From Halichondria panicea (Eukaryota; Porifera; Demospongiae; Suberitida; Halichondriidae), in contig NC_087377.1 in the NCBI RefSeq assembly GCF_963675165.1, forward strand, positions 4,464,042 to 4,528,041: a stretch of 64,000 nt of DNA. The letters are read 5' to 3'. The position numbers were made by a program, and so were the translations under genes. The notes under the pieces are model-generated. The model was given only the letters and a program-made list of their open reading frames with translations. It was not told the origin of the DNA and did no database searches. Of this stretch, positions 1 through 14,959 are shown in pieces (positions within the stretch are counted from its first letter, which is position 1; every line of letters begins with the position of its first letter).

Positions 1-361
1 TTCGGCGAGTGCAACTCCAATCCGTTACAACGTCATTCACATGTACTGTTTCAATAAGTTATAATTATTATTTTTGTTTTGGTACTTTCCTGGCCAATCC
101 TTTCACATTGCAAGTTATATAATTGTAGTGATGTTAATTATGTGCATTTTTTGCAGGCTATAGTTATGTGTTTATGACTCCCTTACAGTGTTGAGCAAAC
201 ACGCAAGTGTTGGATGTGTGGGTGGAAGTATTCCAAGTTATTCATGACCAGCATGCAGATACCAACCTGTATTTCGATTTTAAAATTCCTTATCAACAGT
301 AGGCCACTCGACTGTACATGTTCATGACGTTGTAACGGATTGGAGTTATGCACTCGCCGAA
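1..361. mobile_element. MITE-like element with about 36-bp terminal inverted repeats
   Basis: The first 36 bases recur as an almost perfect reverse complement at 324-361; the only difference is a 2-base insertion. The outer end reads TTCGGCGAGTGCA. No coding capacity lies between the arms, so this looks like a non-autonomous DNA transposon. The left end coincides with the window edge, so the element or its target duplication may begin further upstream. Confidence 0.7.
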
Positions 362-3173: not shown

Positions 3174-6100
3174 ATGTATACTTTCTATCTACATCTACAT
3201 GTACAGGATTCTCGTCATCTAAAAAAAGGCAATAGTAACGGTCTCTTTAGGCGGTACAGATATTTCAAGTGTGATAGAAACTGTGCTGTCTTTGTGTCTC
3301 TGGATAAGCTTGCTGCTAAACCACCTCACCAAGAGCCTGAAACAACTCACTTATTCAAAGCTAAAGCTGGTCAACATTTAGCTGTCCCTGAGGACCGAGA
3401 GGAGTTTGCCAATCCCCAGGATAAAAAGCACACTGCGAATATTAACTCAGCAGAGCTTGATCAGATAAGAGCTGCATTAAATGAAGACATAGACCTATCG
3501 AAGCAAAAGGAACTGTTGGATGCTTTCAATAAGGACTCGAAGAAGAAAGCTCAGCAAAACGAATCCAAAATAAATGTCCAACAACCTTCAGGGCAAGCAA
3601 GAGGTCACTTGATTAAAAAGCAACACTCATGGCATCCTGGAAGTGATCACACCTTATATGGTGAAAGAAAGGAATCCCCACAGAGATCTGCTACAAAAAT
3701 TCCAGTAGAACATGAGAGGGCACTTCCCATACACGCACATTCCATACAAAGGGGGCCTAGAAGTTACGCAAGAACTTATTCCCAACCGCTTACAAATCAA
3801 GACTACAACGCCTCAGTAGAAAACTCCAACCCCTACAACCAAATGGCCCCACAAAACACTGGAGAGCCAGACTATGTTAACAGAGACACAGTGGATCAAG
3901 ACTCAAGAAGTCAACAAAATCAACCGCTTCGCCTAAACCAATGGCAAAGTAACCCTGTGTACCCACAACAACCTGGTGCTGAGCACTATCAAAAAACGGA
4001 TCAGGAAATACCGTCTGGTCCAGAATATCCGAATATCCAACACCCTGGAGTCAAAAAACGTCAGTCTCATCATGATGCTCCACCACAAGTACCTCAAGAC
4101 AACGCCTTGGTAAGAAGCTCCAACCCATACAATCTGGCAGTGGATTCAACTGTTCAAGTGGCCTCTGCGAACCCGAATGACCCCCAGCACTATGAAGTGA
4201 TAAAGGGGACTGGAACTGTAGATGGAGTGGACGGTCAGGTGACTGGGATTGAAGTGGTAGGTATATCATTATTTTGCTTAATCATTTCCTCACAGGAGGA
4301 CTACATGGAATGGTGTACTGACGGAACATTTAAAGCCACAGGAGAGAAGCACTTCACCTGTAACTTTGAAAGAGGAATGCATTTCCCACAGGCTAGCCTT
4401 TGCCCCCACCAAAGGGTTGGACCTGTCTCTACACCACAAGCTGAACATGCTGCATCATCACATCGTGATCAAAATCGTGAGTAATTGATTATACTCCACA
4501 AATATATATAGCCAGTCTCAAGTTATAATCAGGATGGTTTCTATTCTATAGCTATACAAGTCCCAATGGAGGAACAATTGGACCGATTCATTGACGACCC
4601 CACTGAGCAAATGATGAGGTACATTGGAAACAGCCGTGGTATCCAGGGTCACCAAAACTCTTGCTACCTGGACTCTACTCTTTTTGGATTGTTTGCCCTC
4701 AGTGACATTTTTGACACTGTGTTCCTAGCACCAGACCAATCCATCATCACTGACCAGAACAGGAAACGTGTTGTCAACCTACTGTGGAAGGGAATCGTTA
4801 ATCCTCTCAGAAAGCAAGTTAATGGTGTGTGTATGTATTATGCTGTATACTTGTTATTTTTCAGGAATGGTGTGGTGAGGTTTGAGTCAGTGATGAAGAT
4901 GAGAAATGCTTTGGACGAACTCGGGAAAATGGAGGGAATCACTGAGAAGAAGAAAGGTGTTACTGTTTAATAGTGTATGTACGGTGTTGTGTTTAACTGT
5001 CTTTTAGATCCTGAGGAATTTTTAAACACGCTCTTCAAACATGTGCTTTACACGAAGCCATTCATCTCCATCAGGTACGTGTACGTGTATGTCTAGTGTG
5101 CACTGATGTACCGTATATCAGGTAATTTTCCTACTTGCAAATTTTTGTACGAACTATACCCATTTCGTATTTTTAATATTCGGACAGCTCAGGATAGTGA
5201 CGTAGAACCTATTGCCGTATAGAATAATTTCACAGTTTTAATTTTTAAATGGTATGCTCTATACAATACGAAAAATAGGCACCATACGAAAATAACCTGT
5301 TGTACGGTGTGTTAATTTATGCAGGCGTCCGCTTGGTGTGGAGCAAGAGTTCTTTGTCCAACTGTTTGTTGAGTATGATCCAAACCTCAGACTACCAAAC
5401 GTGGGAGACCTACTCAGGAGAATGTTCACAGAACAACGCATCTCATTCACAAAAGTATGTGGTTCAATTTATGTGCCCTCAAAGTTAGCTCAATATTCAA
5501 CTGTTTTTTCAGGTTCCCTCAAAACTTCTGATTCAAGTTTCTCGGTTTGGAAGAGAAATCCCAACATACAAGAAGATTGTTCCAGAGCTGAAACTGAACA
5601 TCAGAGAGTTGACTGACACCTACAAAAAAGGTAATAATGAAAGCACCGCGGGTGCTGATGCCTCGGTGGAGATGCCAAAACTACGTAACATAAAGCTACT
5701 AATAGCTTTTATACACATGAGGAACATTTTTGTTTTGCTGCATGCAAACTCAGAGTGGGTAATGATCGACCATGATTGTTGTTAAAAACGATCGATGCCA
5801 AAAGCTAAAATAATAGCTGCCTTGCAGCTCTCTTCTTATACTCTTGCAGCTACCAATAGCTAGCGTTTTAGTGCAGAGCTAACTACTAAGTAGAGTAGCA
5901 ACACTCGGTAAACAAGTTTGGCTACGTGCTCTTCTGAAAAGGCTGCAATGGCATTCCAAGTAAGCAAAACTAGGCATAACTCGAGAACGAAGCATTATTT
6001 TGCAAATCCACGAATTAAAATCTAAGTAAACATGACTAGAAGCCTATAGAAACTCTTACTTGCATTTGATTCATCCTTGAGCAGCTGTAGCAGTCTATAT

Positions 6101-8112
6101 ACACACACACACAGACACACAAACACACTACCGTATACCTCGCTTGCGCATGCATGCGCACCGAGGCATAATTATAGGATATCCTTGTATCTTGTACTGT
6201 ACAGGTATATCCATTATTCTCCAGCTCCACCCTGCCTTTCTTGTGGGGAGGAGTCAGCTATCAAGTGTGAGATTTGTGGTTTTCTCAGTCAGCAACAGTT
6301 TACCCACTACTGCCAGCGCTGCTCAGACCTATTCCACAATCCTTCCTACAAAGACAAAGTGCAACACAGACTAACTGCTGTTGTTGTTACTGCTACTCCA
6401 GGGGATGATCCTGGCCTGGCTGAGTTGGACCTCCTCTCTGTGATCTGCATTGAGACCAGTCACTACGTCTGCTTCACTAGAGACCCAAGAGATAAAAACC
6501 CAAAAAAGTGGATCTTTTTGGACAGTATGGCCGACAGACAATGTGAGTCAGCCTGCACTAATTGAGTCTTGTTTACACTTAAAACATGTTTGTGTGTACA
6601 GTTGACACGTACAACATTCCACGTGTGACTGACTGCACTCGTGAGCTGAATGAGTGGGTGTATGAGGGAGACCAGGACAGGTTGATCAACACACCACCAA
6701 GAAAGCTACCAGAGTTGGTCCGACGGTTCACTCAAGACATCTACATGTGTGTCTATGTTCAGCCTGATATTGCCATGTATGGAGATGGTGATGAAGCTTC
6801 AACTTCAGTTAAGGAGTTGACTGCAGTCAGTAAGAGGAAATGTTAAAGTATAAGTACAATTAATCAAACATTGCCTTTTCTAGGTGTTGTCCCAACAATG
6901 TCCGAGGAGAGCAAGGATGACATCGTTGAGGAGCTTAAACAAGAAATCACTTCTCTTCAGGTAGAAAACAGAAATCTTCAACAGAGAATCGAAACCAATC
7001 AGGCCGAGCAGTCTCAACATATCCAACTATTGGAAGCTGAAAAGCAACAGTTGTTACAACGATACAATGAGCGAGAACGTACCACCTCTCAAGAAATGGC
7101 CGAGAAAGAAGAGCAAATACAACATCACAAAATGGAAAAGCAACAATCAGATAATGAAAAGCTCGAACTGGAAAGGCGGAAGAAGTACCACAAAGCTCAA
7201 TCAAAGCGCTACCAACAACAGGCTCAGGACATGCAACGAAGGCTAGAGGTGGCAGAAAGTAAAACAAGTCAGTCAAAGTTTTCTAAGCTCCAAATTCCGC
7301 GACTAGACCAAGACTCGTGGAATGTACGAAGACATGAAGTTGTGTTACAAGACAAGCTAGGACATGGTGCTTGGGGATCAGTGTGTCGAGGGCTGTTCTG
7401 TGGTCAGCAAGTAGCAGTAAAGTGTGCACACACAAAAATACTCCACAAAAACACGATTGATCAGCTCAAGAGAGAGATTCGAATCATGGCTCATGTTCAA
7501 CACCCCAACCTGGTGCGACTGATTGCTGCTGTAGTGGACGCTGGTGTGGAGAGAGGTACTGACTCACCTCTGCTTGTTCTGGAGTTTCTTGACACTGACC
7601 TTCGATCCGCTTACGAAACGAAAATTGTCAATTTCCAAAAGGATGCTTTGTTATCGATATTTCGAGAGGTGGCTTATGCCCTCCACTACCTTCACGAGTA
7701 TCAAGAGCCCATCATCCACCGTGATGTGAGTGCTCCCAACGTCCTCCTCCAGCAAATACACCCAGGAGTTTGGAAGGCAAAACTATCTGACTTTGGATCA
7801 GCCAATCTGGTCAAGCACAGTAAAACACCGGCCCCTGGAGCTATAATCTACTCTGCCCCTGAAACCTTCCCGTCAAGGGTTGTTCAGAAACAAACAACAA
7901 AGATTGATGTGTACAGCTACGGCTACCTTCTCGTTGAGGCCATTGCCAAAGAAATGCCTTCCGATGATGAAAAGGAAACATTGTTGCTCAAAATCAAGAC
8001 TGAGTGGGTGGACATGTACAACGTAATAACGGCATGCACTGCATACGAGCAAGAGGACAGACTCACAATGACTCAAGTCCTTGAAAAACTCAATAAGCTA
8101 CCTTCTCACTAA
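3174..8112 (+). CDS. CYLD-like deubiquitinase fused to a coiled coil and a protein kinase
   Basis: Ten exons join in frame: 3174/3207-4256, 4296-4476, 4552-4813, 4865-4956, 5008-5074, 5325-5454, 5513-5630, 6225-6542, 6602-6829 and 6884-8112, about 1,225-1,235 residues. Order: half of a CAP-Gly domain (YFKC), a Gln/Pro/Asn-rich linker, a full CAP-Gly ending GEKHFTC, and a CYLD-type USP domain. The USP has the catalytic Cys in NSCYLDS, His in ETSHYV and Asp in LDSMADR, with a Cys-rich zinc insert (CLSC, CEIC, CQRC). A long coiled coil and a kinase follow, with a GHGAWGSV loop, VAVK, HRDVSAPN, DFG and APE. CYLD proteins cut Lys63/linear ubiquitin chains in NF-kB-type signalling, but known CYLD has no kinase. 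All catalytic residues appear present in both enzymes. The start is uncertain: TACAG at 3202-3206 looks like an acceptor, so the first exon may lie upstream. Confidence 0.85.
5636..6174 (+). mobile_element. MITE-like element, family A (copy in intron 7)
   Basis: It begins GAAAGCACCGCGGGTGCTG and ends with CACCGAGGCATAATTAT, so the terminal GCCTCGGTG motif is inverted. It carries a short CA microsatellite near the right end. A closely matching copy lies at 42204-42760, and fragments are at 9770-9850, 21537-22390 (reverse), 27150-27280 and 49010-49140. It fills most of intron 7 of the USP-kinase gene. Confidence 0.75.
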
Positions 8113-8560
8113 CAATAACAATTGTGTGTTTGTGCATAGTATAGTGTAGTAACAGGAGTTAACTACTCAGCAGTTTTTAGCGTGTGTGCATTTAGAATGA
8201 TCACGATGATATCCTCTGGAATATTGCGTGGGCGTGTCTTGTAATGATTTTCGTACTCTATGTCTGGAAGATAACAGATTATATAGACAATGGATAAGCC
8301 TCTATTTGAAGAAACAGAGACGGCCTTCCAGGCAGTAGATCTAGGCTCCACAGTGCAAGTGGGGCAGCCTCCTCGCTATGGAGTGGTCAAGTAGTTGGGA
8401 ATGTTCCCAAGAGGCAGTGCCTGCGTGCCTGAGCCATGCGCCAATGGCCGGCTGGTATTGAGCTGGTAAGATACTGAATTATAATAGAGCTAGCTCTGTG
8501 TACGTGTGTATATGTGTGTGTGTGCATGTGTGTGTGTATGCAATGCGTCACTGTGACTAC

Positions 8561-8778
8561 CGTATTACTAGAATATTTTGCGGGTGAAAATCTTTGCGAA
8601 TGAGCCAAATCAGCAGAAAATTTGACCCTTTTCAATTAACTAGCTAGATACATGTATTGCGTTCGGGCAAGGATCGTGTGTATTTACTGTAGGTTTTGCG
8701 GATTTTATTGTTTCGAATTGATCAACCCTCGCAAAATTCACAAATGTTTAATTCTCGCAAAACATTCTAGTAATACGG
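8561..8778. mobile_element. MITE-like element, family C (copy 1)
   Basis: The ends CCGTATTACTAGAATATTTTG and CAAAACATTCTAGTAATACGG are inverted. The element lies in the intron between the two CAP-Gly exons of the pseudogene. Other copies are at 9434-9641 and 24117-24287, with fragments near 26590-26662 and 43015-43125. Confidence 0.8.
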
Positions 8779-9433
8779 CCTACCTACCTGTGCTCTCCTC
8801 ACAGGATGGGTACTGGCCTAAGGATTGTGGGGACGGATCATTTGAGGGACATAGCTACTTTACTTGTGAGCATGGCCATGGATGGATACTTCCACCCTCT
8901 CAAGAATGTCCAACCAAATCAGAGCCTGGCCAATGACCCTGTACCTGCCATCATCTGGGGCAACAGCATGCCAGCCGAGAATCGTGAGCTCCATTCGTGT
9001 AATAAAAAATAAGTTACCAAGCATCGCAATTAGGTATAGTCAGGTGACATCGTAGGACATTGTGACATTAATTATCTATACATAAATCAAATGCATGACT
9101 TTCCCCCCCCCCCCCTCCAGCACTACAGGACCCCCTGGAGGAACTGGAGGAACAATCCACAACACCCCCTGCACAGGTCTATGTGGGGGAGAAGAGAGGG
9201 ATCCAGGGTCACTATAACTCCTCCTACATCGACTCTACCATCTTTGGTCTGTTTGCCCTCAGTGATGTCTTCAACACAATGTTCCTGGCACCAGACAAAG
9301 ATGCTCCGGCCAGCAGACAAGAGTTTAAGGACCTCCTCGCCAAAAAAATAATCAATCCTCTCAGAAAGTGAGTTGTATGTGTATGTGACCTTACTCCCAA
9401 CAACCATTTCTTCATGCTATAGTATCAGGCATA

Positions 9434-9641
9434 CCGTATTAACTAGAATATTTTGCTGGTGAAAAACCTTTGCAAATGAGCCAAATCAGCAGAAAATTTG
9501 ACCCTTTGCGATCTAACTATTGCGTTCTGGCAAGGATCGTGTGTATTTACTAGTAATAATTTAGGTTTTGCGGATTTTATTGTTGCGAATTGAACAAAAT
9601 TCGCAAATGTTTGATGCTCGCAAAACAGTCTAGTAATACAG
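9434..9641. mobile_element. MITE-like element, family C (copy 2)
   Basis: This is a close match over its whole length to the element at 8561-8778, with the same inverted ends, inserted in the next intron of the same pseudogene. The shared interior includes GGCAAGGATCGTGTGTATTT. Confidence 0.8.
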
Positions 9642-9761
9642 TATTCATTATTTAAGTAGATCTATTGACATTCATTATCAGGAATGGAGTAGTGAGGTTT
9701 GAGTCAGTGATGGAGCTGACGAGAATGATTGAGGACCTGAAGAGACAGCAACAGCCTTCAA

Positions 9762-10456
9762 GTGAGTCAACCTAGCCATAACTCGAGAAAGAAACTTTAG
9801 TTTGCTAATCCACGAATCGAGAACGTGGCTAGAAGCCTATAGAAGCTGGAACACTGCAAAAAATTTTGTTTGAAACTACATTCCATAATCGTTTTAACAT
9901 TATTCTTAAACAGTTGAATCAACTTAATATTTAGTAAAATAAAAAGACAACGTTAAAATAATCAGTATATGTGGTTTTAACTTAAAATATTGTAGAATCA
10001 CACAATGTCTTTTATTTCTACAATAATTTACATAGAATCTATTATTGATATCTTAAATCAAACTAACAAACTCATTTTGATTAAATTATATTTGAAACTC
10101 TATCATGCAGCATGTTAGAATACAATATATAAATTTAGATTTAACAATAATAATATTAATTTTGTTCTAACACAGGCACACATATAATTATATACAATCA
10201 ATATTTTTAACAATCCATTTATAATAGCATGAGTGATGTGAAATTATATATACAGTCATGAATATTGTAAGCAAGTTTGCATAGAACCATAGATATAGAG
10301 GACCTAGAGAAACTAAATGAAATTGTGGGCGTGGCTATGCTAAGTCTAAGATTGCGCATGCTCAGTAGATCTAGATCTGTGAAACCATGTGCTCCAAAAA
10401 AAGAGAAGACACCCTTACTATAATTATGCTGGACATTTGCTGCTATAAATCTGACT
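9762..10456. other. Very AT-rich spacer with repeat debris
   Basis: A fragment of family A (9770-9850) is followed by about 400 bases of very AT-rich sequence. No exon was recognised. Confidence 0.5.
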
Positions 10457-10705
10457 GTGATGATACTTCTGTGAGAGGTGAGGGACAGACATGAAGTGTT
10501 CTCAACAGTATAATTATAAAACTTTAATAGGTATGACTGTGACTCGACTACACCAAGTGGATGATGATACTTCTAGTTCTGTAAGAGGTGAGGGACAGAC
10601 ATGAAATGTTCTCAACAGTATAATTATAAGGCTTTAATAGGTATGACTGTGACTACACCAAGTGGATGATGATACTTCTGTGAGAGGTGAGGGACAAGCA
10701 TAAAG
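10457..10705. repeat. Tandem repeat, about 105-bp unit, about 2.4 copies
   Basis: The block containing GATGATACTTCTGTGAGAGG, CTCAACAGTATAATTATAA and TTTAATAGGTATGACTGTGA occurs twice in full and a third time in part. Units differ by small indels. There is no coding signal. Confidence 0.85.
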
Positions 10706-12072
10706 TGTCTAGTTTTCTGGTGAACACTGTCACTGTCAATATACCTCTAAGCATATACTTTTTCCTACAGAAATTCCTTAAACTGGCAAGCTTGACATGC
10801 GAGAACAAACGAAACAAACAGACGAATGGATAGAAGTGGCGTCATTGTTGGATATCCTCTCGGTGATTGATAATACACGGTAATAATTAATATCAATAAC
10901 AATGATGTATTTACTATTATAGGTGGACTCTGCATGGTCAAGAGTGATCGGTTTGTCCAGTATGTTAAACCAAGGAGAATTACTATTATTAATTTAAAAC
11001 TGTCCTTCTAATTTAACATTGTATACCATTGTCTCACTCAGTTGTCACGAACGTTTCCTATCACTATTTTTGTATTAACATGTTATTTATTGAATTGAAT
11101 AATAATTGTTATACCGATTCATTTGTAAATCGTTGTTTTAGGAATTTATTTAGCTATAATGAGTCTTATTTATTATAATAAGTATTTTCTTAATGGTTGT
11201 TTTAATGTATGGCTTAAGTAGATTTGACAATAAAACACAATAGTTTTAACCTAGCAATAATAATGTTAAAACTACATTTATACATTAATACTTATAAGTA
11301 TTTTTAAATAGTTGTTATAATTATTACATAAAAGTTGAATTGACGCTTTTTGTACTTCGTTAAAGCTACATTAATAAATGTCACCTCAGTTTCAATTGTT
11401 TTGACCATTAAAAAAATTGTTAAATTGATTAATTTTTTTTGTAGTGAACAGACACACAGACACACACACAGTCAGCTTTACCGTATCCCTCATGCGGCTA
11501 CGCCTCGAGGCATAATTATGCTAGTAATTTTAATATGCAACTGGGATTGTGCTATAGACGTATGGGGAGAGTTGGCGTGCCTCCAAAGATCTAACACACT
11601 GTTTTTGATTATCAAGGTCGGACATCTATTAGCTATAATTATATACCCACGGTTAGCTTTAGTGCAGTCTATGCATGCAACAAGCAATGGACCAAATTGG
11701 AAACTATATATTGGATGGCACTGTGTTACGTAATAAAAAAACATGTGGGAGCAACACGGAAGACGGTAAGCTGATCACGAAGCTGAAAACCCTGTTTAAG
11801 CTAGTTTTATAGAAAAAAAATGATGAATCACGAGTATTAGAGTTAGTATAACAATTTAATTGTCATTGCACACTTCACTGATGTGCAGATTTGATGGATA
11901 TCATTGGCTGTAGGTCACATGATCAGCAATGTAACATATTCCGCCGGGGCAGTTGTTAGAAAATAAGCCACGACGTGCAATTACTGCATGGTCCAGATGT
12001 GCTATATTAATTGCACTGCTTCACTGTACAAAACCCCAGTGCTTGTGATGAATGATGTGTACATGTATACAG
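10706..12072. other. AT-rich spacer
   Basis: No gene was recognised. A worn end of family A, with a CA-rich stretch followed by CCTCGAGGCATAATTATG, is at about 11445-11520. The stretch 10900-11420 is strongly AT-rich. Confidence 0.4.
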
Positions 12073-13408
12073 TACTTGAATTTCAGTTCAGTCAGGAGGT
12101 GATCTCCATAGCAGAAGAGATTGGAGCAGTAAGTGTCTGTTTGGAGATAGCTAGCAACCTGCCCAGAAATGTGGAAATAAGATTAGTCTCACAAGATGGA
12201 AATGCCACTGGTATATATAACTATATAATCATGCAGTGTAGCCATGTTGTTCACTCCCCCTCTCTATATAGAGCCGAGGGACTACACTGCTGTCTACACC
12301 ACGGTCACGTTCCTCAGTGGAACTGCTCGTGATGGTCCAGGATCTCACATGTGCTTAGACATTAAGCTATCTGATGATAGTATAGTTGAGATGGATGAGG
12401 TGTTCCTGTTGACAGCACACTCTCTTGCTCCTAATGTCAACATCATCAATACTGCCACTGTTATTATCGTCAATAGTGATGGTAGGTGAAATATTGATGT
12501 GTGATCATTGCACAAATGTGGCGTTGGCTTGTTTCCATCCAATACAGACTCTGCCACTATTATCATGGTCCATAATAATAGTTATATCCTAACTGTTCGT
12601 TTATAGTTGAAAGTGGACTCTACATGCAACTATACACTTCATCTGTACGAGGGCCCACAACTGACGATGGTAGTGTAGAAGTTGAGTTACAGAATGGCTT
12701 CAGGTTCCTGGAACAACAGTATACTTACGTCATAGTAAGTTTTCCAAATTGTGTTACATAGATTCACCATAATATTAGGTGGGCAGCAATGGACATGTAA
12801 CACTAAACGGATCCGCTACGTTTATTACTAACGTAGAATCGCTCCCTTTTTCTTCATCTCCATTTCTAGAGCCCCCTTCTTGTCAGATATCAATCCATCT
12901 AGGGGAGGACTAGTATTCTACAGAGAGACCCAAGACGATCTGCTCTTCACACGAGCTACCAATGAAGTGAGGACTGCCTTCCCTAACCACCCCACCTTCA
13001 CTCCTGTGTCCTTGTTCATTGCAACTTGGCTTCAATTAAGTTCCACCCGTATCTGGCGATGGGGTTAGTTTAGTAACAAGTATGATCACCACAATTAATT
13101 ATTCATTATTATACAGACGAATACTTTCCAAATCATTATGGCAACAGATGGTCAAGCTTCATTTGTCACCTTTATATACGATGACACACAATGGACAGAC
13201 GATGGTCAGGATGGTTTTGCTCCACTGGCTGGAATCAATGGTAGTGATAATTATGGTTCGCTCTGTGGCTCTACCTGGGTCTTCGTCAAATGATATCAGG
13301 AACCTCACAACCACTAGCAACGTGGAGGTGCCTGGTTTGTGGATTTACAGGGTGGATTCTTCAGACATCATTGCTCCTGCATGGAAGAACTCGCTAGCCA
13401 CCATGTGA
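12073..13408 (+). pseudogene. Calx-beta / NIDO domain gene with frame damage
   Basis: Exons 12073-12210, 12272-12481, 12607-12734, 12779-12819 and 12870-about 13063 splice in phase. The first two encode a Calx-beta-like unit (acidic SIVEMDEVFLLT, then ATVIIVN). The next encode the start of a NIDO (nidogen extracellular) domain (GSNGHVTLN, APFLSDINPS, GGLVFY, FIATW). The exon at 13117-13408 continues the NIDO domain (TNTFQIIMATDG, YDDTQW, then LTTTSNVEVPG) and ends at a stop. However, the phase does not match between FIATW and TNTFQ, and a further one-base shift lies near 13262-13270. Either the gene is decaying or the assembly has two indels. No signal peptide was identified. Sponges carry many such secreted or adhesion proteins. 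The intron 12820-12869 contains a textbook branch site, TTACTAAC. Confidence 0.65.
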
Positions 13409-14959
13409 TGTGAGCTCCCCCCATATACATGTCTGAGTTTGCATGTGCTTATTATTATTCTTGAATGTCTTTTATAATAGGTTCAAGCTAGCTAGAGGCA
13501 ATTAACTTCTGTAGTAACTCATCTATATTAACATAGTAGTGACAGATTTTTCTGTGTACAAGTAACATCATAGTGTTGTGTTTTGTTTGCCCACGAGGCT
13601 TTATTAATGTCATTACACAACATGAAATTAAACTGTTGGAGGAAGGATTACATATATATATGTTGCTATTCTCCTGATCTAGATATCTTACGCTTATATA
13701 TTAGCAGTCAAATGTTGTCAAATAATATTACAACAACAAAGGAGCATGCTATCAACTTGTCAATATTGATCAAAGTTGATATTGGATTGTGTGGTAGATT
13801 GGAGTGTCATGAATGCGATTATCCTTTGCTGAGCTGTACCCTACATTTAACCGGCTGAAGGACACTATAGATCTATAACCTTTTTGGCTAACTATAGAGC
13901 TATAGCAACATCATTCAACATCGTTATATCATTATTTTGTATTTTCAATTCCCTAAAACTACAATAGAAGATAGCAACACAAGGAGAAAGCGTGCGACCA
14001 ATAATTCTATGTACGAGTACAATGGGTATTTTAAATTATAAGTATTTTATCCACAGGCAAACGTAGCAGAACAATGGCAGTGGCGTTTCTACGAAATACA
14101 GTAGGAGGTTGCTGAGAGCTGGCGACAAAGTTTAACTGCCCACGTACAGGAAACCACACCCCCTTTTCTGCACACGACAACTTTTTTATAGTGTCAATCA
14201 TTAGACGTAGACGTGAAAAAGCTTGGAAATACTGAATATAGCTAGTGCTGCTCCTCCTGAATAGCTCCCAGATAAACAGTAGTAGAAGAAGGTATTATGA
14301 GACGGAACCAATTATGAGACAGCTGTTTAAAACAGGAGTGCTTCAGCTATTCTGTCTGCAGTTAATAGCACTATCACTCTAGTATTTTTTCCAAAAGAAA
14401 TTTGGAGTTGTATGCTTGTGTTGACAGAGATACCACAATAGTTTGTTTAAGTACAGAATTTAATTGGAAAAAACATTTTTAATTGACCAAATTTAAGTGG
14501 GTACCAAATGTTTGTAGTAAAATTCACTTGGTATCAGTTAAAACTGTTTTTATAGGCAAAATAATCACTATATTTTAATATTAGAAAGTTCCAGATATGT
14601 TAGAACAGCCAATTACCGTTAAAATTAATTAATTGCAATGGTGTCTCGTAAATACCCCCCCTGTCTCATAATACCCAAACCACTTTGAACACTAAAATGC
14701 TAGCATTAGCTGCAAACAAAGCACTGTCACTCTTTTTTTTGCTTACATGCAAAGCATATTGACCATAAAAGTTAGTGAACAGGCTATTTAGTTCCCTCAA
14801 GATTACTGCAAGACAGGGGGGTCAGAAACATTTAGATGTCTCATAATACCCCCTTGTACTCTAACCTTGAGGCCTATATCTTAAAATGTAGCAGCTAGTA
14901 CTAGCTAGTCTCGCGGGCCATACTCCACAATCTGATACTACGTATGGTGACTATTGCCA
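13409..14959. other. Spacer without a recognisable gene
   Basis: No exon was recognised. A 32-bp stretch at about 14907-14938 (TAGTCTCGCGGGCC ... CTGATA) recurs at 25452-25483, where it borders a broken protease gene. Confidence 0.45.

Follow-up and report, generated by a model that had tools for sequence, protein, structure and literature searches.

A predicted CYLD-type deubiquitinase of the sponge Halichondria panicea that continues into a coiled coil and a protein kinase domain

The human deubiquitinase CYLD is described in passages of PMC5796713 as carrying three N-terminal CAP-Gly domains and as removing ubiquitin chains that help activate kinases, and passages of PMC8511506 report that its CAP-Gly2 and CAP-Gly3 domains bind ubiquitin and that its activity on Lys63 chains is switched by IKK phosphorylation. 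We have analysed a stretch of 64,000 nucleotides (nt) of the Halichondria panicea genome, hereafter the window (C1:4464042-4528041), in which a CYLD-like gene is predicted to continue past its ubiquitin-specific protease (USP) domain into a coiled coil and a protein kinase domain. Human CYLD and the window protein share an N-terminal CAP-Gly region and a CYLD-type USP with a Cys/His/Asp triad, whereas the window protein has a coil and a kinase behind the USP, has lost CAP-Gly2 and retains CAP-Gly3 in degenerate form. The protein is already in RefSeq as an automatic prediction and represents a modified form of an enzyme already known, CYLD. Judged from sequence, CAP-Gly, CYLD-type USP, coiled coil and kinase very probably constitute a single polypeptide encoded by one gene. 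An initial annotation of the window had proposed this union, and it is strongly supported by a RefSeq model which spans the USP-kinase junction, by splice phase that is kept in paralogs and by uninterrupted open reading frames (ORFs) at two paralogous loci, g and h.

The ten exons located within window positions 3207-8112 (Table 1) splice without an internal stop into 1,224 amino acids (aa) plus a stop codon, in agreement with the whole number of codons reported in the initial annotation. Its gene start at 3174 is rejected, as positions 3174-3206 are intron 1 and the first coding exon, which had been missed, is located at C1:4459670-4460149, 3.9 kb upstream of window base 1. This 160-aa exon 1, whose product begins MARAITPDYLFLL, extends the full predicted protein to 1,384 aa. 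The exon 4 donor at 4814 is GC, defining a GC-AG intron. Splicing from the USP exon (6602-6829) into the coil/kinase exon (6884-8112), previously claimed to be in phase, is confirmed as a phase 1 junction with the donor CAGTCA/gtaagagg and the acceptor ttttctag/GTGTTG, and the peptide predicted across 6829/6884 of the fusion is VKELTAVSVVPTMSEES. The best protein match, RefSeq P0001 ("CYLD-like isoform X3"; 95% identity over 100% of the query), is the automatic prediction of the window gene. With respect to the present model it gains 13 aa by keeping the 39-nt intron ahead of exon 3 as coding and loses 46 USP residues (1,384 - 46 + 13 = 1,351 aa).

Pfam detects CAP_GLY (1.8e-7), UCH (3.8e-6) and Pkinase (1e-35) in the 1,224-aa model. 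Human CYLD (2VHF) is the top PDB match to the USP, of which it covers almost all (residues 23-388, E 1.4e-67), and the Cys, His and Asp that the initial annotation had read as catalytic align with those of this structure. Of 1,640 CYLD-USP matches within set length limits 120 were listed, and those that bear a name are mostly annotated as CYLD. The CAP-Gly assignment stands in part: exon 2, from 3207 onward, encodes only the C-terminal part of CAP-Gly1 (Pfam profile 37-64 of 65), the sole recognisable CAP-Gly domain of the window copy, and the set of three found in human CYLD is not matched. A paralog on C9, RefSeq P0002 (LOC135340804; unit l), has the same architecture and is better kept, with two Pfam CAP-Gly stretches and a CAP-Gly2-like stretch. 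The USP is not C-terminal in the window protein, being followed by coil and kinase. The kinase has the Gly loop, VAVK Lys, alpha-C Glu, HRD Asp, DFG and APE; the VAVK, HRD and DFG motifs had thus been read correctly, with the qualification that HRD+2 is Ser and not the Lys usual in Ser/Thr kinases. A structure model of exon 11 (mean pLDDT 85.9, pTM 0.64, 22 sequences) places a helix at residues 7-127 followed by a kinase fold, and the N-terminal part of the exon is predicted to be a 120-residue long helix forming a coiled coil. Among 50 fold matches listed, all with 20-28% identity to the exon 11 kinase, the closest PDB folds are ALK, TNNI3K, Csk and Roco4, while the closest solved kinases by sequence are CTR1, a lectin-type receptor kinase, MLK1 (MAP3K9) and TNNI3K. 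The exon 11 kinase appears to be TK/TKL-like, although its catalytic loop, HRDVSAPN, differs from those of the TK/TKL kinases closest to it by sequence or fold (TNNI3K, MLK1, CTR1, Roco4, ALK).

The junction was compared with related loci across the 131-Mb H. panicea genome (39 contigs), in searches in which only the best candidates were scored and copy numbers are lower bounds. The USP last exon is present in at least 15 copies, namely the window copy and 14 on C9 (538-638 kb), with that of locus k split into two matches, and a kinase exon accompanies 12 of the 15, i.e. 11 loci besides the window. The exon 11 coil is present in at least 14 copies; a USP last exon precedes 12 of them, counting that of the window, and a CAP-Gly3 exon precedes the other two. 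Among these 14 copies found genome-wide, none is located apart from a CYLD exon. Match-to-match distance between CYLD exon and coil on C9 is 59-130 nt, the corresponding intron in the window being 54 nt. The junction alignment took in 11 of the 12 kinase-bearing USP loci, h being left out. The donor, GT[AG]AG, is kept in all 11 and the acceptor in eight, while the remaining three have an AG 15 nt downstream in the same frame; RefSeq P0002 and P0003 show the peptide generated from the downstream acceptor, P0002 containing ..YSIITELSKLMESKDD... A phase 1 in-frame join is available in 11 of the 12 loci (nine by scripted splicing, b and i by eye), and at h, where scripted splicing found no splice, the frame is open without one. 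At loci g (C9:576660-578210, 517 aa) and h (C9:584227-585825, 533 aa), a single genomic ORF runs without a break from the USP end through linker and coil into the kinase, and the same frame is open in locus j as far as a stop inside the kinase, matching the truncated RefSeq P0003.

These data bear on the alternative that CYLD and the kinase are two neighbouring genes, joined only by gene prediction or by occasional read-through transcripts. A number of observations count against a single gene. Read-through of the USP exon in the window stops 27 codons past the domain motif, and an ATG at 6898 could start the kinase; five of the 10 other aligned loci have another in-frame ATG 4-5 codons past this position and window exon 11 has a later Met at codon 71, so that an internal start is compatible with the ATG pattern alone. 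Three of the 15 USP copies (C9 538, 633 and 637 kb) have no kinase found in the 1.5-3 kb downstream, the CYLD of Amphimedon queenslandica and two environmental CYLDs end without a kinase, and no protein with both USP and kinase from another species is present among the matches listed. Furthermore, the RefSeq fusion models are gene predictions. However, ATG 6898 is not conserved: the 10 other loci in the alignment read GTG or GTA there, and five of these 10 have no in-frame ATG nearby. The coding parts are just 54 nt apart in the window, the phase 1 join is available at all but one of the 12 loci, and the arrangement expected of a conjoined or read-through gene, an own start and stop for each half with each half also occurring alone, was not found. 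A separate kinase gene starting at 6898 was rejected on the basis of the unconserved ATG and the uninterrupted ORFs in g and h, and a kinase that is a chance neighbour on the basis of these ORFs, of the recurrence of the arrangement at 11 loci besides the window and of the coil copies, 14 of 14 of which adjoin a CYLD exon. Two separate genes are very unlikely because at g and h the frame stays open from the USP end through the coil and the kinase.

The initial annotation stated that known CYLD proteins lack a kinase and this proved correct with respect to the relatives listed, as precomputed Pfam domains include no kinase in 117 of the 120. The remaining three are all from H. panicea: P0001 and P0002, with kinase domains, and P0003, with a truncated kinase. 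The query matched 61 proteins; those with kinase domains from species other than H. panicea aligned to no more than roughly one third of its length, and an alignment-based protein search returned seven proteins and no new fusion. Conserved linkage in other species, also raised by the initial annotation, was found in part. Two Ephydatia muelleri predictions, EMCRGX_G031364 (P0023) and Em0018g638a (P0032), resemble the window protein in having a CYLD-like N-terminus, CAP-Gly, coiled coil and kinase, the latter with HRDVSSANV/DFGSA, but differ from it in having no USP in the predicted proteins, a comparison made on protein models only; in P0032 the kinase is truncated and covers Pfam positions 3-168 of 263. 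In contrast, Amphimedon queenslandica CYLD (P0006) has an RBR/RING-type N-terminal region and no kinase. P0006 combines E3-like and deubiquitinase parts in one predicted protein. Fig. 1 of PMC5796713 draws Amphimedon CYLD among homologues, with a legend that names RING finger, CAP-Gly and deubiquitinase domains without assigning the RING finger to a particular protein in the passage concerned. The environmental CYLDs P0004 and P0005 end at the USP. Among the papers listed in searches of open-licence PubMed Central literature, none describes a deubiquitinase-kinase fusion, a sponge CYLD, P0001 or P0002 in its title or abstract start, and CYLD is unnamed (0 occurrences) in passages of papers on Dysidea and Halichondria immunity. 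Passages of PMC8242945 report that H. panicea regulates ubiquitination and kinase genes after exposure to lipopolysaccharide, CYLD being unnamed there.

The window gene on C1 and the C9 array constitute one gene family. Selection was estimated as NG86 dN/dS between window and C9 copies, with stop codons skipped and one match taken per piece and locus, giving values which are not independent and which are noisy for short pieces. In the kinase, dN/dS is 0.28-0.35 (13 comparisons). For USP exon 9, the eight closer copies have values of 0.13-0.24 and the five divergent copies, with dS near 1, values of 0.39-0.48; the USP last exon ranges over 0.11-0.85 (14 copies). Values for the coil are 0.16-0.57 in ten copies and 0.28-0.29 in two USP-less copies. 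At the level of sequence, these values show purifying selection on the family. The assembly of the C9 copies had gaps, the Cys position of b, f and i being unreadable; where readable, Cys is kept in nine of nine copies and His and Asp in 13 of 13. VAVK Lys is kept in 14 of 14, and no readable copy has lost alpha-C Glu, HRD Asp or DFG Asp. DLG replaces DFG in three of the 14 C9 kinase copies in which the residue is readable.

The USP cassette can be skipped or lost in frame since it comprises 405 codons with phase 1 at both ends; exon 3 joined directly to exon 11 stays in frame and yields 819 aa from exon 2 on. Two USP-less CAP-Gly/coil/kinase loci, C9:603483-605627 (L043) and C9:614266-616888 (L042), have this arrangement, with the donor of the CAP-Gly3 exon facing the coil/kinase exon, no USP between them and an in-frame join when read by eye. 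Their kinases have DLG in place of DFG and differ from the other fused kinases, and together with the kinase of h they have 41-42% identity to the window kinase and occupy a separate branch of the kinase tree. The Ephydatia muelleri kinases are located in yet another part of the tree, deep support being moderate. From this tree, 12 of 51 rows were left out as duplicates, near-duplicates, broken or partial (L031, P0001, P0002, L037, L039, L040, L041, P0011, P0015, P0017, P0038 and P0039). Because the USP-less, h and Ephydatia kinases branch apart from that of the window, kinase domains seem to have been exchanged, or the union of CYLD and kinase seems to have been made more than once. Locus h (L006) is itself a hybrid, in which a window-like USP end and coil are joined to a kinase like that of the USP-less genes in one ORF, which points to an exchange of domains within the array. 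At C9 532-534 kb there is another, more distantly related CAP-Gly/kinase locus. Far outside the array, C9:1277066-1277497 gives a weak match to CYLD exon 1 (35%, one TGA), 4 kb from a related kinase.

With regard to function, we give about an even chance to the overall reading of the 1,384-aa protein as a CYLD-type deubiquitinase with a coiled coil and TK/TKL-like kinase, in which coil-paired kinases switch the protease in cis; the switching of the CYLD protease by the attached kinase is in itself a tentative proposal. The coiled coil would pair two molecules, the paired kinases would turn on, and the active kinases would phosphorylate the CYLD half in cis, probably at Ser/Thr-containing linkers around CAP-Gly3. 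This phosphorylation may alter protease activity on Lys63 and Met1 chains. The attached kinase would thereby stand in for the trans-acting IKK, creating a CYLD that carries its own activating kinase. Given the precedents of an IKK phospho-switch and ubiquitin-binding CAP-Gly domains in passages of PMC8511506, a switch in cis is the simplest reading of the fusion. Extended to the family, the kinase would switch CYLD in cis while exchange of USP cassette and kinase in the array would generate deubiquitinase plus kinase, deubiquitinase-only and kinase-only versions with a shared CYLD N-terminus, a lineage-specific sponge signalling set which we regard as possible, if still doubtful.

Several features weigh against regulation of the protease in cis by an active kinase. 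The window copy is without CAP-Gly2, as judged by alignment, and its CAP-Gly3 is degenerate and below Pfam detection, while full activity of human CYLD needs CAP-Gly3 (passages of PMC8511506). Isoform X3 is without 46 USP residues, the coil of h has a dN/dS of 1.67 (69 codons, dS 0.026), and in units e, j and k the kinase is interrupted by a stop or frame break. Because these three kinases are broken and none was found beside three USP copies, the kinase appears dispensable in some copies. Ephydatia kinases do not group with the window kinase in the tree, and the association may have arisen more than once. After HRD, the catalytic loop has Lys in Ser/Thr kinases and Ala or Arg in the Tyr type; the Ser at HRD+2, invariant in 22 aligned rows, fits neither, leaving substrate type ambiguous. 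The CAP-Gly decay, the invariant Ser, the DLG copies, the shortened USP of isoform X3 and the broken kinases would each suit a single polypeptide that acts as a scaffold, with little or no activity in one of its enzymes or in both. This explanation is nevertheless improbable, since the protease triad and the kinase Lys, Glu and Asp residues are kept wherever readable in the array and dN/dS is low in USP exon 9 of the eight closer copies and in the kinase.

The main rival to a switch in cis is a single polypeptide in which CAP-Gly and USP aim the kinase at microtubules or at scaffolds of ubiquitin and the kinase signal ends once the USP has removed the scaffold, the main substrates of the kinase being other proteins. 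The USP-less CAP-Gly/coil/kinase genes of the C9 array and the Ephydatia predictions, in which N-terminus and kinase are kept without the protease, are in its favour. So are four proteins in which the same kinase family is joined to other domains (P0014, P0016, P0021 and P0027), partners that, from their Pfam accessions, we take to be HSP70, GTPase-type or ubiquitin-like. The case of LRRK2, a TKL kinase, is also in its favour. Of the proximity partners of LRRK2, CYLD is reported in passages of PMC13304329 to be the most co-evolved. By analogy this partnership makes a union of CYLD and kinase plausible, but it does not give the identity of the window kinase. The CAP-Gly2 and CAP-Gly3 domains, which bind ubiquitin in human CYLD, are however lost or degenerate in the window copy, and we consider such an aiming and stopping device rather unlikely.

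Ubiquitin removal and phosphorylation usually reside in separate proteins, and the fusion would provide one recombinant protein for testing their cross-talk. The natural fusion would also count as evidence that CYLD and kinases are partners, consistent with the LRRK2-CYLD co-evolution reported in passages of PMC13304329. The symmetric USP cassette, together with its absence in sister genes, offers a simple route for domain gain and loss in such enzymes.

Table 1. Exons and related features of the predicted CYLD-kinase gene (window coordinates).
Feature	Position	Strand	Basis
Exon 2: CAP-Gly1 C-terminal part, Gln/Pro/Ser-rich linker, degenerate CAP-Gly3 start	3207..4256	+	splice sites, Pfam CAP_GLY
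Exon 3: CAP-Gly3 remainder, phase 1 donor	4296..4476	+	
Exon 4: USP start, catalytic Cys in NSCYLD, GC-AG donor	4552..4813	+	
Exon 5: USP	4865..4956	+	
Exon 6: USP, partly missing in RefSeq isoform X3	5008..5074	+	
Exon 7: USP, partly missing in RefSeq isoform X3	5325..5454	+	
Exon 8: USP	5513..5630	+	
Exon 9: Cys-rich insert (probably zinc-binding), catalytic His (TSHYV) and Asp (DSMAD)	6225..6542	+	
Exon 10: USP C-terminal block RRFTQDIYMCVYVQ and linker, phase 1 donor	6602..6829	+	
54-nt intron at USP-kinase boundary; read-through stops at TAA 6844-6846	6830..6883	+	
Exon 11: predicted long helix forming a coiled coil (about 6886-7290), then the kinase domain (7291-8109) and a stop codon	6884..8112	+	
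USP cassette of seven exons with a total of 1,215 nt (405 codons); both ends in phase 1	4552..6829	+	

Intron 1 contains a large fold-back at L051:4026-6327 (C1:4461567-4463868), with arms of up to 253 nt at 100% and TTGTCAATAATT-rich repeats. This intron also contains, at window positions 13-347 and 1386-1917, two short and presumably MITE-like (miniature inverted-repeat transposable element-like) elements bounded by terminal inverted repeats 37-38 nt long. Downstream of the fusion gene, no kinase match beyond noise was detected in window positions 8113-14000. A second, broken CYLD copy is located at 8290-9751, having a CAP-Gly start interrupted in frame by a TAG, as read by eye, and a USP start, NSSYIDST, in which Ser replaces the catalytic Cys.

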